A stretch of 37,193 bases of DNA, taken from Bacillota bacterium. Lineage in GTDB: Bacteria; Bacillota; Clostridia; Saccharofermentanales; Fastidiosipilaceae. Positions 9,173 through 35,523 of the stretch are shown in pieces (position 1 is the stretch's first letter; the number at the start of each line of letters is the position of its first letter). Location of the stretch: NCBI GenBank assembly GCA_030057555.1, contig JASGUU010000008.1:1-37193 (forward strand), in the 5' to 3' direction. The position numbers and the translations under genes were made by a program. The notes below the pieces were generated by a model. That model ran no database searches. It was not told the DNA's origin and was given only the letters and a program-made list of their open reading frames with translations.

Positions 9173-9352
9173 GGGCAGGAACGGGATATTGGCCAGGGAT
9201 GGACAAAAAATTCGCTGGTGCCCCTGAAAGCGGGCAGGAACGGAAATTTTGGCCAGGGATGGTCAAAAAATCCGCTGGTGCCCCTGAAAGCGGGCAGGAA
9301 CGGAAATTTTGGCCAGGGATGGACAAAAAATCCGCTGGTGCCCGAAGTTCAG
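9173..9352 (+). repeat. 60-bp tandem repeat array A, three copies
   Basis: Three head-to-tail copies of a unit beginning GGGCAGGAACGG and containing GGCCAGGGATGG, a run of six A, and CCGCTGGTGCCC. The first copy is 59 bp, the next 60 bp, and the last diverges at its 3' end. Copies are almost identical. The unit length is a multiple of three, so the plus strand stays open through it with a 20-residue period, which creates a spurious reading frame. Within each unit CCAGGGAT can pair with ATCC-G-CTGG across a purine-rich loop. The array lies between the divergent GNAT and kinase genes. The same unit occurs in opposite orientation at 18612-18823. Confidence 0.9.
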
Positions 9353-18511: not shown

Positions 18512-18611
18512 GTTTTTAGCCTGGAGTCAGCCGTTGCGCCTGTGCTGTGGTTACCTGGCTGACTATTGGTGGCTCGGACCGGGGCAGGGGGCTGATAAAC
18601 CGCAATCGAGG

Positions 18612-18823
18612 CCTTCCCTGGACAATTTTTCCGCTCCTGCCCGCTTTCAGGGGCACCAGCGGATTTTTTGGCCATCCCTGGTCAAATTTTACGCTCCTGC
18701 CCGCTTTCGGGGGCACCAGCGGATTTTTTGGCCATCCCCGGACAAATTTTACGCTCCTGCCCGCTTTCGAGGGCACCAGCGGATTTTTTGTCCATCCCCG
18801 GACAAATTTTACGCTCCTGCCCC
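18612..18823 (-). repeat. 60-bp tandem repeat array B, about 3.5 copies, inverted relative to array A
   Basis: The same unit as at 9173-9352 but reverse-complemented, with an exact 60-bp period (for example CTCCTGCCCGCTTTC at 18635, 18695 and 18755). It starts with a partial copy and ends in CTCCTGCCCC. Copies differ at a few single positions (AG, GG or GA after CTTTC; GGCC or GTCC before ATCC). In two copies one stem base changes A to G, read in the unit orientation, which keeps a G-U pair opposite CTGG. The array lies between the ricT terminator and the ferredoxin promoter. No transposase gene or target-site duplication is visible. Confidence 0.9.
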
Positions 18824-26578: not shown

Positions 26579-26613
26579 AAAAAAGCGGCTTGTACACGGT
26601 TTTCGGGACCGCT
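26579..26613 (-). terminator. Weak hairpin plus T run in the glnN leader, possible attenuator
   Basis: On the minus strand AGCGG and CCGCT can pair around a 20-base loop and are followed directly by six T. It lies between the candidate promoter and the glnN start codon, so it would act as a leader terminator or attenuator. The stem is only five pairs, so this is tentative. Confidence 0.3.
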
Positions 26614-26651
26614 CCTGCATACTTATTCGGTATTCTGGATATTTGCATGAT

Positions 26652-26681
26652 ATTATGCAGATTTTTGCATATATATGCAAA
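26652..26681 (-). promoter_or_regulatory. Candidate glnN promoter overlapping a perfect 18-bp palindrome
   Basis: On the minus strand TTGCAT and CATAAT are 17 bases apart. The -35 lies inside the perfect palindrome TTTGCATATATATGCAAA (26664-26681). A second imperfect palindrome, TGCAT-6-ATGCA, covers 26644-26659. The surroundings (26.55-26.80 kb) are clearly richer in AT than neighbouring genes. The palindromes could be a regulator site for glnN. The rest of the gap between glnN and the SRP RNA (26324-26898) shows no gene. Confidence 0.45.
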
Positions 26682-26898
26682 GACACTCTGCGAAAACTGC
26701 ACTAAACCGGATTTTTGCTCATGGCCGCCATATGCATGGGGCCGGATTCACGCCCGGAGCACGCCCGTAGCCTTCTCACACCTATACTATCCTATATAGC
26801 GGCGCTTCAGGCCGCGCCCATGATGCCTCACATGCCAGTCTGACAACGGTTTGGCGTATCACCGCAGACATGTGCTGCATTCGGACGCGGGCAGTGGC

Positions 26899-26934: not shown

Positions 26935-27093
26935 CTGACGGAGACCTTTTCCCTGTTCTGGGGTCGGCAGCGGGTCCCGTGCGATGTGGCCCGTGAACCC
27001 TGTCAGGTCCGGAAGGAAGCAGCAGTAAGCGACCAGCCGCAGGTGCCACGGTTACGCCTGTCGCCGACTCCAGACCAGAGGAAAGGTCTTTTG
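26935..27093 (+). ncRNA. ffs: Signal recognition particle RNA, small (4.5S-like) type
   Basis: The domain IV core GTCAGGTCCGGAAGGAAGCA (27002-27021), with its GGAA tetraloop and asymmetric loop, is the Ffh binding site and is diagnostic. The flanks fold into one long hairpin: AGACCTTT near 26942 pairs with AAAGGTCT near 27082, and CTGGGGTCGGC near 26958 pairs with GCCGACTCCAG near 27063. A TTTT run follows. The estimated length is about 155 nt, with no sign of an upstream Alu domain, although many Bacillus and Clostridium SRP RNAs have one. It lies 43 bases ahead of dnaX, as scr does in Bacillus. The ends are approximate. Confidence 0.92.
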
Positions 27094-33257: not shown

Positions 33258-33902
33258 TTAGTTGAGGGCTGCCATGACCTCGCGCGCGATGAAGAGGTGC
33301 GCGGTGGGGTTGGGGTGGACGCGGTCGGAAGCGAGCTGCATGTAGTGGCGCCTGGCTGTCAATTTGTCAAAGGCGGCGGCGATATCGACGAGGCGGAGGC
33401 GCGCGTCCTGGCAGGCGAGCTCGCGGACCACCCCGGCATAGGCCTCGGCCTGCCGGCGCATGGGGTCCTGCGCCGACTGATCGAGAAAGAAGGGCGTCAG
33501 CAGCAGCATGCAGCGCAGCTGCGGCATGGCGAGCGAGCGTTCGATGATCTCCGTGTAGTTGCGGCGGTACTGGTCGACATCGATGTGGATGCCGCCGAGC
33601 GCCGGCGTGTCGTAATGGCGCCAGACATCATTGATCCCGATCATGATGGAGAGCACGTGCGGCTGGACTGCCAGAATGTCCTCATCCATCCGCGCCAGGA
33701 TGTGGGCGGTGGTGTCGCCGGAGGTGCCGGTGTTCACGACTGCGATGTCGCGGTCAACGTAGTCCAGCTGCAGCAGCGAATAGACGAGGCGCGGATAGCC
33801 CTCGCCGAGGCCACCGAGACCATAGCTATGGGGGCGGGCACGGCCGCAGTCGGTTACGCTGTCACCGGTAAACAAAAGAATCTCCTGATGCTTCAGAATC
33901 AT
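33258..33902 (-). CDS. SGNH/GDSL-family hydrolase (esterase or lipase type)
   Basis: A 214-residue SGNH hydrolase. Block I is TGDSVTD with the nucleophile Ser15, block II is a glycine in NTGTSGDTT, block III is GINDVW (GxND) and block V is SDRVHPN, supplying Asp and His. All catalytic residues are present. No signal peptide is seen, so the enzyme is likely cytosolic and may deacetylate a sugar or ester. The start MILKHQEIL is chosen because GAGGAG lies nine bases ahead; the longer frame reads through the 71-bp repeats. It is divergent from the dehydrogenase gene, with the repeat array between them. Confidence 0.88.
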   Translation of the reverse strand: MILKHQEILLFTGDSVTDCGRARPHSYGLGGLGEGYPRLVYSLLQLDYVDRDIAVVNTGTSGDTTAHILARMDEDILAVQPHVLSIMIGINDVWRHYDTPALGGIHIDVDQYRRNYTEIIERSLAMPQLRCMLLLTPFFLDQSAQDPMRRQAEAYAGVVRELACQDARLRLVDIAAAFDKLTARRHYMQLASDRVHPNPTAHLFIAREVMAALN

Positions 33903-34003
33903 GATTTCGCTCTCCTCAAGTTCTTTGTTCTCAGGTCTCACGCGCCTGTCGCCAGCAGTGTACTGCAATCGCCGCCTGGCTGCAGGCGGCTGTCTGTGCA
34001 CTT

Positions 34004-34262
34004 TTTCGAGGTTCCGCAGCCAAAACGTGCGGAAGCTTGAAAAGCTGCACATTTCGGGGGCGTTCTGTGCAATATTTCGAGGTTCCACGGCCAAAACGTG
34101 TGGAAGCTTGAAAAACTGCACATTTCGGGGGCGTTCTGAGCAATATTTCGAGGTTCCGCGGCCAAAACGTGCGGAAGCTCGAAAAACTGCACATTTCGGG
34201 GGCGTTCTGTGCAATATTTCGAGGTTCCGCGGCCAAAGCGTGCGGAAGCTCGAAAAACTGCT
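34004..34262 (+). repeat. 71-bp tandem repeat array of hairpins, about 3.7 copies
   Basis: Four hairpins at 34004-34042, 34075-34113, 34146-34184 and 34217-34255 recur with an exact 71-bp spacing. Each has TTTCGAG, a G, TTCCGC, an eleven-base loop (GGCCAAAACGT), GCGGAA, a G, and CTCGAAA or CTTGAAA: a stem of 7 plus 6 pairs around a G-G mismatch. Copy 2 changes both sides of the inner stem together (TTCCAC with GTGGAA). Copies 1 and 2 have a G-T in place of G-C in the outer stem. Between hairpins TGCAC and GTGCA form a smaller inverted repeat in most copies. The rest of the divergent gap (33903-34446) has no gene. Confidence 0.92.
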
Positions 34263-34446
34263 GCGCAGCCGGACTACGAAACGAGCAGGATTGCCACTCC
34301 CCCCTGATAGCTCTGCTGCCAGCTGTCCTGCAGCTCACTGTACACCCCGGTCACCGCGGTCTTCGCCACGCAGTCTGGCATTCCTAAAGAAAGCTGTCAA
34401 AACTGTATTTATGTGCGAAACTACGGGCAGCAGGAGGTTTGAAACG

Positions 34447-35523
34447 ATGAAAACAGTACCACCCACCATGCGGGCCCTCGTCGCCCATTCAGCGGATCGC
34501 TATCACTTTGAAGCCGCCTGGCCAACACCCGAAATCGGCCCCGATGATATCCTCCTTCAGATTGAGGCCTGCGGCATCTGTGCCGGCGATCTCAAGGCCC
34601 GCCAGCGTGCCGCCCGCTTCTGGGGCGGCGATGGAATGCCGGCTTACTGCGAACCGCCCTTTATCCCCGGCCATGAATTCGTTGGGCGTATCGTCGCCGT
34701 CGGCGAGCGGCGCCGCGATGCCTGGAATGTGGGCGAGCGCATCGTTGCCGAACAAATATTGCCCTGCGGTCACTGCCGCTACTGCCGTCAGGGCCAATAC
34801 TGGCTCTGCGATCCGCATGACGTTTTCGGCTTCCGCTCCTCCCTGAATGGCGGCATGGCCGAATATGTGCGGCTGCCCGCGAACGCCCTGCTCTACCGGG
34901 TTCCCGAGACATTCACGCGGGCGGAGGCGGCCCTGATCGAGCCCTTTGCCTGCTCACTGCACGCCGTGCGCCGTTCCGCTGCATCCGTCGACGACGTGGT
35001 CGTGCTGGCGGGAGCAGGAACCCTCGGTCTCGGCATGGTGAGTGCCCTCCGGCAGCGTAATCCCAGACAACTCATCGTCCTCGACCTCAACGAGAAGCGC
35101 CTCGAGCGTGCCCGTGTCTGCGGTGCCGATCTGACTTTGAACCCGGCGCAGGAAGATGTCATCAACAGAGTGCTCGAGCTGACGGACGGCTATGGCTGCG
35201 ATGTCTACATCGAGGCCACCGGACATCCGTCCGCGGTGGGGCAGGGGCTGGAAATGATATGCAAAGCCGGCCGCTTCATCGAGTTTTCCGTCTTCGGCGC
35301 CCCGGCGACCGTGGACTGGTCGATCATCGGAGACGCGAAGGAGCTGACACTGCTGGGGTCATCGCTCAGTCCCTACTGCTACGAGTCCACCATCGCGGGC
35401 ATCGCCGACGGGACGCGGGTCACCGAGGGCATCGTAACGCACGAGTTTGCCCTCGAGGACTGGGAGGCCGCCTTTGAGACGGCCGCTTCGACAGACTCGA
35501 TCAAGGTATTGATCGTTCCCTGA
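34447..35523 (+). CDS. Zinc-dependent alcohol dehydrogenase, erythritol/L-threitol dehydrogenase type
   Basis: A 358-residue medium-chain dehydrogenase. The catalytic zinc residues are Cys42 in ACGICAGD, the GHE motif at 75-77 and Glu165 in IEP. The structural zinc is held by Cys107, 110, 113 and 121. The NAD(H) loop is GAGTLG (189-194). From memory, the FWGGDGMPAYCEPPFIPGHEF, GFRSSLNGGMAEY and EFSVFGAPATVDWSIIGD segments closely match the proteins annotated as erythritol/L-threitol dehydrogenases, so a polyol or related sugar alcohol is the likely substrate. AGGAGG lies nine bases ahead of the ATG. An in-frame ATG at 34411 is less likely. Upstream lies the 71-bp hairpin array. Confidence 0.9.
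   Translation: MKTVPPTMRALVAHSADRYHFEAAWPTPEIGPDDILLQIEACGICAGDLKARQRAARFWGGDGMPAYCEPPFIPGHEFVGRIVAVGERRRDAWNVGERIVAEQILPCGHCRYCRQGQYWLCDPHDVFGFRSSLNGGMAEYVRLPANALLYRVPETFTRAEAALIEPFACSLHAVRRSAASVDDVVVLAGAGTLGLGMVSALRQRNPRQLIVLDLNEKRLERARVCGADLTLNPAQEDVINRVLELTDGYGCDVYIEATGHPSAVGQGLEMICKAGRFIEFSVFGAPATVDWSIIGDAKELTLLGSSLSPYCYESTIAGIADGTRVTEGIVTHEFALEDWEAAFETAASTDSIKVLIVP

Follow-up and report, generated by a model that had tools for sequence, protein, structure and literature searches.

Which described repeats come closest to a tandem array of palindromes lying between two bacterial genes? REP and BIME-2 elements are dispersed extragenic imperfect palindromes, with BIME-2 forming tandem arrays, and binding by gyrase (to BIME-2), IHF, and Pol I has been reported (PMC2817692). 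A REP is described as a 20–40-bp palindrome carrying a GTAG or CGTC tag, and the CGTC type is reported without a dedicated transposase (PMC3733652). In Neisseria, short inverted repeats and longer repeat units together form the intergenic arrays known as NIMEs; dRS3, a 20-bp sequence of the form ATTCCC(N8)GGGAAT, is given as an integration site of filamentous phage (PMC3898611). Correia and RUP elements are classed as palindromic MITEs (PMC2817692).

The array described here lies in a window of 37,193 nucleotides (the whole stretch of DNA analyzed, from contig JASGUU010000008.1) belonging to the draft genome of a Bacillota bacterium (G000; 2.9 Mb in 90 contigs). Tandem Repeats Finder, run on the window, delimits the array at 93% matches and without indels (Table 1). 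An initial annotation, made from the sequence alone, had reported four copies of a hairpin with a 13-bp stem at an exact spacing of 71 bp. Copies and spacing were borne out, and the hairpin is present but had been undersized: an outer TGTGCA/TGCACA pair extends the dyad to 57 bp. The unit of this family, F1, is an imperfect palindrome of that length (arms TGTGCA-3-TTTCAA-2-TTCCGC around an 11-nt center) followed by a 14-bp linker. The letter changes on which the annotation had based its case for structure are real as well. Copies 1, 3, and 4 share TTCCGC/GCGGAA, which is replaced by TTCCAC/GTGGAA in copy 2; opposite TTCGAG, copies 1 and 2 have CTTGAA, a swap to G-T, and copies 3 and 4 have CTCGAA. 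For units 1 to 3, folding is more stable than in shuffled sequences on either strand (z of −3.9 to −5.9 in six of six folds), as is expected of any palindrome. A dehydrogenase gene starts 183 bp downstream of the array; its best named relative is in a Candidatus Alectryocaccomicrobium MAG (69% identity), and the other 11 loci are from eight Clostridia-type MAGs (including a Christensenellaceae), one Halanaerobium, and two Planctomycetota. These relatives suggest that the host is a Clostridium-like gut bacterium. An Rfam search of the window gave no match above the gathering score at the array and a single match elsewhere, the SRP RNA at 26968–27066.

Table 1. Repeat arrays of the window, the units of the F1 array, and its neighboring genes (positions are those of the window)
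Feature	Position	Strand	Source
Tandem array, family F1, compact form, 71-bp period, 3.8 copies	33993..34261	+	TRF
Unit 1, 57-bp dyad TGTGCA...TGCACA	33995..34051	+	
14-bp linker TTTCGGGGGCGTTC, the same in all three linkers of the array	34052..34065		
Unit 2, sole compensated change of column pair 22/36 among 70 aligned units	34066..34122	+	
14-bp linker	34123..34136		
Unit 3, outer hexamer TGAGCA vs. TGCACA, uncompensated	34137..34193	+	
14-bp linker	34194..34207		
Unit 4, last hexamer degenerate (array edge)	34208..34264	+	
GDSL-like lipase/acylhydrolase gene, 5′ end facing the array	33258..33902	-	
Zinc-type alcohol dehydrogenase gene, 5′ end facing the array	34447..35523	+	
F2 array, 60-bp period, 56-bp dyad, TGGACA/TGGCCA-type ends, 4-bp linker	9173..9343		
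Second F2 array, opposite orientation	18610..18822		

Like REP and BIME elements, F1 is a many-copy, dispersed, intergenic palindromic repeat. It differs from them in its unit (57 bp, not 20–40 bp), in having several arm families of one length beside it, and in the single, rather than alternating, orientation of its units within an array; in the window array and the other listed host arrays, these are direct head-to-tail copies. By eye, the F1 core consensus has no GTAG or CGTC tag on either strand, and a search for the Y1 transposase (PF01797) gave no match in G000, the same search being positive in 5 of 14 control genomes. Because tag, Y1 transposase, and alternating orientation are all missing, we did not file F1 as a REP mobilized by a RAYT. 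With the neisserial elements it shares the intergenic arrays of short inverted repeats, but its 23-bp arms, 14-bp linkers, and sequence are unlike theirs: the dRS3 pattern is absent, by eye, from the F1 unit consensus, and no phage carrying an F1 array was found. BLAST of 50,697 phage and 72,556 plasmid records returned no match to the array, nor did an exact search of viral contigs with one gapped pattern, and on the absence of such matches a phage or plasmid origin was ruled out. The 14-bp linkers recur inside each array and are therefore not the unique spacers of a CRISPR; an integron attC array is unlikely, as there are no gene-sized cassettes between units. A literature search, thin on subscription journals, found no paper describing these repeats.

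How widespread is F1 in its host and beyond? The window array has at least 42 matches in G000, itself counted, in a search that scored 40 of 50 candidates, and the family occupies at least 32 intergenic places of this genome, in every gene context (the family search behind the unit calls and this dispersal scored 150 of 1,539 candidates). At up to three mismatches, the pattern of a single arm, or half-site, has 188 matches in G000 and its reversed version has none; chance is therefore excluded. Among 188 genomes of the order, half-sites with at most one mismatch number 122 in G000 and 125 in its sister species G001, the only congener in that set, with one each in two others and none in 184. 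We examined F1 in 33 regions of the host genome, namely the window and 32 fetched regions (L-numbers denote fetched regions). Because F1 loci were fetched by their similarity to the window array or the half-site, arm frequencies are somewhat biased toward the query. These regions hold 182 half-sites at up to four mismatches and 32 clusters of at least two half-sites; none of the clusters touches a predicted gene, and predicted genes, called by a simple codon-usage script, cover 79% of the same DNA. Arrays reach up to eight units. At the edges of those in L017, L020, L031, L064, and L068, an arm variant like CTGTCCAGANCGNAAATTTTGCNCA was seen by eye about 15 bp beyond the last full unit. In L019, L020, L024, L027, and L032, arrays lie within about 260 bases of contig ends, which suggests that arrays broke the assembly and are under-counted.

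Which parts of the unit are conserved? A profile search for F1 gave 87 matches, of which 73 near-complete units were retained (74 with unit 4 of the window). Alignment A1 contains 70 units (68 distinct), omitting L017:3178, L018:6050, L028:2993, and window:34208 as odd in length, weak, or degenerate; alignment A2 takes one unit from each of 23 compact arrays, and the compact arrays L065, L066, and L071 stand outside both. Between arrays, divergence is 0.124 at the 36 block positions and 0.49 in both the small gaps and the loop. Within arrays, the corresponding values are 0.066, 0.093, and 0.151, copies of one array being more alike than copies from different arrays. F1 is made up of two 23-bp arms conserved in both sequence and spacing, with a center and linker that drift. 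Facing arms in G000 are separated by 11 bp in 77 instances and by 92 bp in 8, with nothing else up to 130 bp; in G001 they stand 92 bp (nine), 91 bp (three), or 81, 32, and 115 bp (one each) apart. Linkers measure 13–15 bp in G000 and 14–16 bp in G001 and, among the G000 arrays listed, are similar inside each array and different among arrays. With the two arms pooled, half-site position 20 is C in 94% of 182 G000 half-sites and T in 94% of 48 G001 half-sites, and in the listed long units of G001 the change is present in both arms. Because of the constraint on the arms, their exact spacing, and this species-wide change without compensation at the level of units, we regard the arms as candidate half-sites of a dimeric protein; recognition of half-sites by such a protein would leave the conservation pattern seen in F1. 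Part of the arm conservation could instead come from recent common descent and from the finding of loci by arm similarity rather than from binding.

At some loci, and singly at some of them, the same F1 arms enclose 92 bp, making a dyad of 138 bp—the long form. Its 92-bp core is a dyad in its own right, with TGCATA/TATTCA boxes, and contains facing TGCATAWWTATTCA-like boxes with TGCATA/TATGCA between them; the exact pattern TGMATAWWTATTCA has 15 matches in G000, all with TGCATA, and its reversed version none. The long core also occurs between F3 arms (L111; see below) and other arms (L168). Published consensuses for the ARG boxes of ArgR/AhrC are given as TNTGAATWWWWATTCANW and AWTGCATRWWYATGCAWT (PMC4865122), and by sequence comparison the core motif TGCATAWWTATTCA resembles a mix of the two; the compact window array, unlike these, has no such core. 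Compact loops match the long spacer best at its last 11 nt (6.9 of 11) and first 11 nt (6.7), against 5.7 in the interior, which lends only mild support to an origin of the compact form from the long form by loss of 81 nt. With its 23-bp terminal inverted repeats, the MITE hallmark, its TG...CA ends, and its single occurrence at some loci, the 138-bp form is like the palindromic MITEs; it is unlike them in that its core is a spaced dyad of nearly fixed length and in the tandem arrays with constant linkers. The flanks of single long units revealed, by eye only, no consistent target-site duplication, and L068 is flanked on each side by its linker sequence. A TGCAT-rich stretch at window positions 26593–26700, which precedes the SRP RNA gene, looks, by eye, like a decayed long-form core.

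How stable are these elements between the two sister species? G001 lacks the array L029:270-539 in the gap that corresponds to it. In two pairs of orthologous gaps, L038/L068 and L039/L029b, both species have elements, but of different make-up; for L038/L068, agreement is 32 of 36 positions in the arm blocks and 57 of 92 in the 92-bp core. The G001 counterpart of the L015 gap, 2.7 kb long there, has the same flanks with an F1 element between them; the two flanks of L023 fall on separate G001 contigs. At the window locus itself, the alignment with G001 stops at base 33989, five bases before unit 1; beyond that end G001 has a different gene, and the dehydrogenase is not at that place.

Is the geometry of F1 confined to one arm sequence? 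The window also holds two arrays of a second family, F2, for the first of which the genome yields 50 matches, with overlaps and hits on both strands counted. A third family, F3, was seen in a 400-kb sample of G000 (TGGTCA...TGACCA, 56 bp plus a 15-bp linker, making 71 bp), and a 211-kb sample of G001 contains F2, F3, and at least two further families with periods of 61 and 70; in total, the samples hold at least five arm sequences. We scanned for any TGNNCA-bounded dyad of 45–75 bp with 15 of 23 arm positions alike, which yielded 42 in G000 and 40 in G001, 72 of the 82 being 56 bp long and 5 being 57 bp. Clusters of at least two dyads number 23 in the samples of these two genomes vs. none in two other genera sampled, G008 and G002 (400 and 360 kb), where the scan found three dyads of scattered lengths and none, respectively. 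The unit of the superfamily is a 56–57-bp dyad bounded by TGNNCA hexamers. Twelve clusters per 400 kb extrapolate to roughly 90 in G000, an estimate from contigs picked nonrandomly, by length or number. Among L161–L180 of G000 and L181–L200 of G001 there are mosaic arms (e.g., L161:13722, whose outer and inner parts belong to different families).

Paired change is where F3 stands out. Alignment A3, with 32 of 34 F3-like units of G000 (not L170:1634 or L180:19406) and 10 of 11 of G001 (not L189:11941), has two-sided changes in 34 of 756 cells, a number reached by none of 500 shuffles. Most are block swaps common to related units, among them whole-block replacements such as that of ATCCAAA/TTTGGAT by ATGGCAA/TTGCCAT in 4 of 10 G001 units and in none of the 32 from G000; a difference between the species is also included. 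Because these changes exceed all shuffles, dyad symmetry has been maintained in evolution; its source could be a homodimeric protein, a folded DNA strand, or the copying of one arm onto the other. F3 mismatches are evenly divided (6 G.T vs. 5 A.C).

Does F1 itself evolve as a paired strand? Two-sided changes occupy 4 of 1,224 cells in A1 and 1 of 414 in A2, values reached by 471 and 439 of 500 shuffles, respectively; the percentage paired in A1 is reached by 495 of 500, and RNAalifold returned a consensus with 0 pairs. The selection on structure proposed by the initial annotation finds some support in the sister family F3 and none in F1, in which the aligned units have paired changes no more often than shuffles. 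At column pair 22/36, 57 units have G-C, 12 have A.C, and only one, copy 2 of the window, has A-T; just 1 of the 13 units with an A at column 22 is therefore compensated, and the compensation loses its force as evidence for RNA. The outer-hexamer pair 4/54 is unpaired in 25 of 68 distinct units. F1 mismatches comprise 42 G.T, 40 A.C, and 86 others; with G.T and A.C so nearly equal, no strand is favored, contrary to the earlier argument from G-T pairs that the plus strand is the functional one. When units are re-oriented by column 17, G.T exceeds A.C by 51 to 31 (14 loci vs. 7, with 1 tie), which is suggestive at most as a strand signal. At columns 17/41, 60 of the 70 units have G.G or C.C, 6 have a T.G wobble, and none has a Watson-Crick pair. 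This mismatch and the re-oriented G.T excess, together with the good folding of the units and the two-sided changes of F3, favor hairpins of single-stranded or cruciform DNA recognized as structures, much as REPs are by RAYTs, with the G.G mismatch marking strand polarity. We consider this reading rather unlikely given the lack of compensation in F1 at the level of both units and arrays, the uncompensated differences in the outer hexamers, and a host genome with no Y1 transposase match; the 17/41 mismatch may also have been inherited from a founder of the compact form.

Could the arrays be multiplied operators, the regulon of a transcription factor? Half-sites arranged as dyads, the species-wide letter change in the arms, and the resemblance of the long-form core to ArgR-type boxes would all suit such a role. 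The 26 array gaps with both neighbors, however, are not biased toward gene starts (6 divergent, 12 tandem, and 8 convergent, vs. 11, 14, and 7 for other gaps of at least 100 bp in the same DNA), arrays run to as many as eight units, and each genome has several arm families, which makes a regulon quite improbable. A structured plus-strand RNA (a leader, terminator, or sRNA) acting on the dehydrogenase gene is more doubtful still, strong as the folding of the unit is and close as the array lies to the start of that gene. Covariation and wobble bias in the default orientation are both absent from F1, the array has no Rfam match, a simple scan of 33880–34480 found no promoter-like site, and the congener has neither array nor dehydrogenase at the matching place. 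Because of the mix of gap types just given, leader function is not general, and with 8 of 26 arrays in convergent gaps, we reject for this family the leader RNA that the initial annotation had suggested for the dehydrogenase, along with an Rfam RNA or a terminator. A neutral, satellite-like expansion with no binding partner, its symmetry due to the copying of arm onto arm, is equally hard to credit: homogeneity inside arrays, mosaic F3 arms, and degenerate array edges are in its favor, but in comparisons of different arrays the blocks have only about a quarter of the divergence of loop and gaps, and the spacing is exact.

The reading we consider probable is that F1 is BIME/NIME-like dispersed intergenic DNA, part of a genus-specific superfamily, with arms that are putative half-sites for a dimeric DNA-binding protein and with tandem amplification of the unit. 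Each arm would be a half-site of a dimeric or multimeric protein on duplex (or extruded cruciform) DNA, the candidates being a recombinase or transposase that spreads the element or a chromosome-organizing protein. Tandem growth and homogenization may result from in situ recombination or slippage among copies, and the compact 57-bp unit might, more weakly, be a collapsed 138-bp element. By analogy, function would be like that of E. coli BIMEs or neisserial NIME arrays. The two-sided changes of F3 count against this interpretation, as they would also be expected from selection on pairing, and so does a host genome with no Y1 transposase match. Two of the three options left by the initial annotation, a protein-binding array and a small mobile repeat, both fit the evidence. 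Judged by analogy with described systems, F1 would work most like BIME-2 or NIME arrays and is a variant form of dispersed palindromic repeat.

What would these arrays mean for the genus? Several satellite-like array families of one fixed unit length are unexpected in bacterial genomes. Tentatively, we put forward a broader possibility: one genus, probably of gut Clostridia, may carry about a hundred or more intergenic satellite-like arrays that have several unrelated arm sequences and a single geometry (a 56–57-bp dyad with a period of about 60 or 71); in two or more of the arm families, an ArgR-box-like core would be common to the long forms. Geometry, and not sequence, would then be what is conserved, as for a chromosome-organizing nucleoprotein fiber or for recombination sites with co-evolving recognition proteins. 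Because several arrays sit at contig ends and the window array sits at a break in synteny, arrays may drive rearrangement. The superfamily is also a natural experiment, in which arms differ between families and sister species and length and symmetry stay constant; a binding protein could therefore be sought through its co-variation with the arms.
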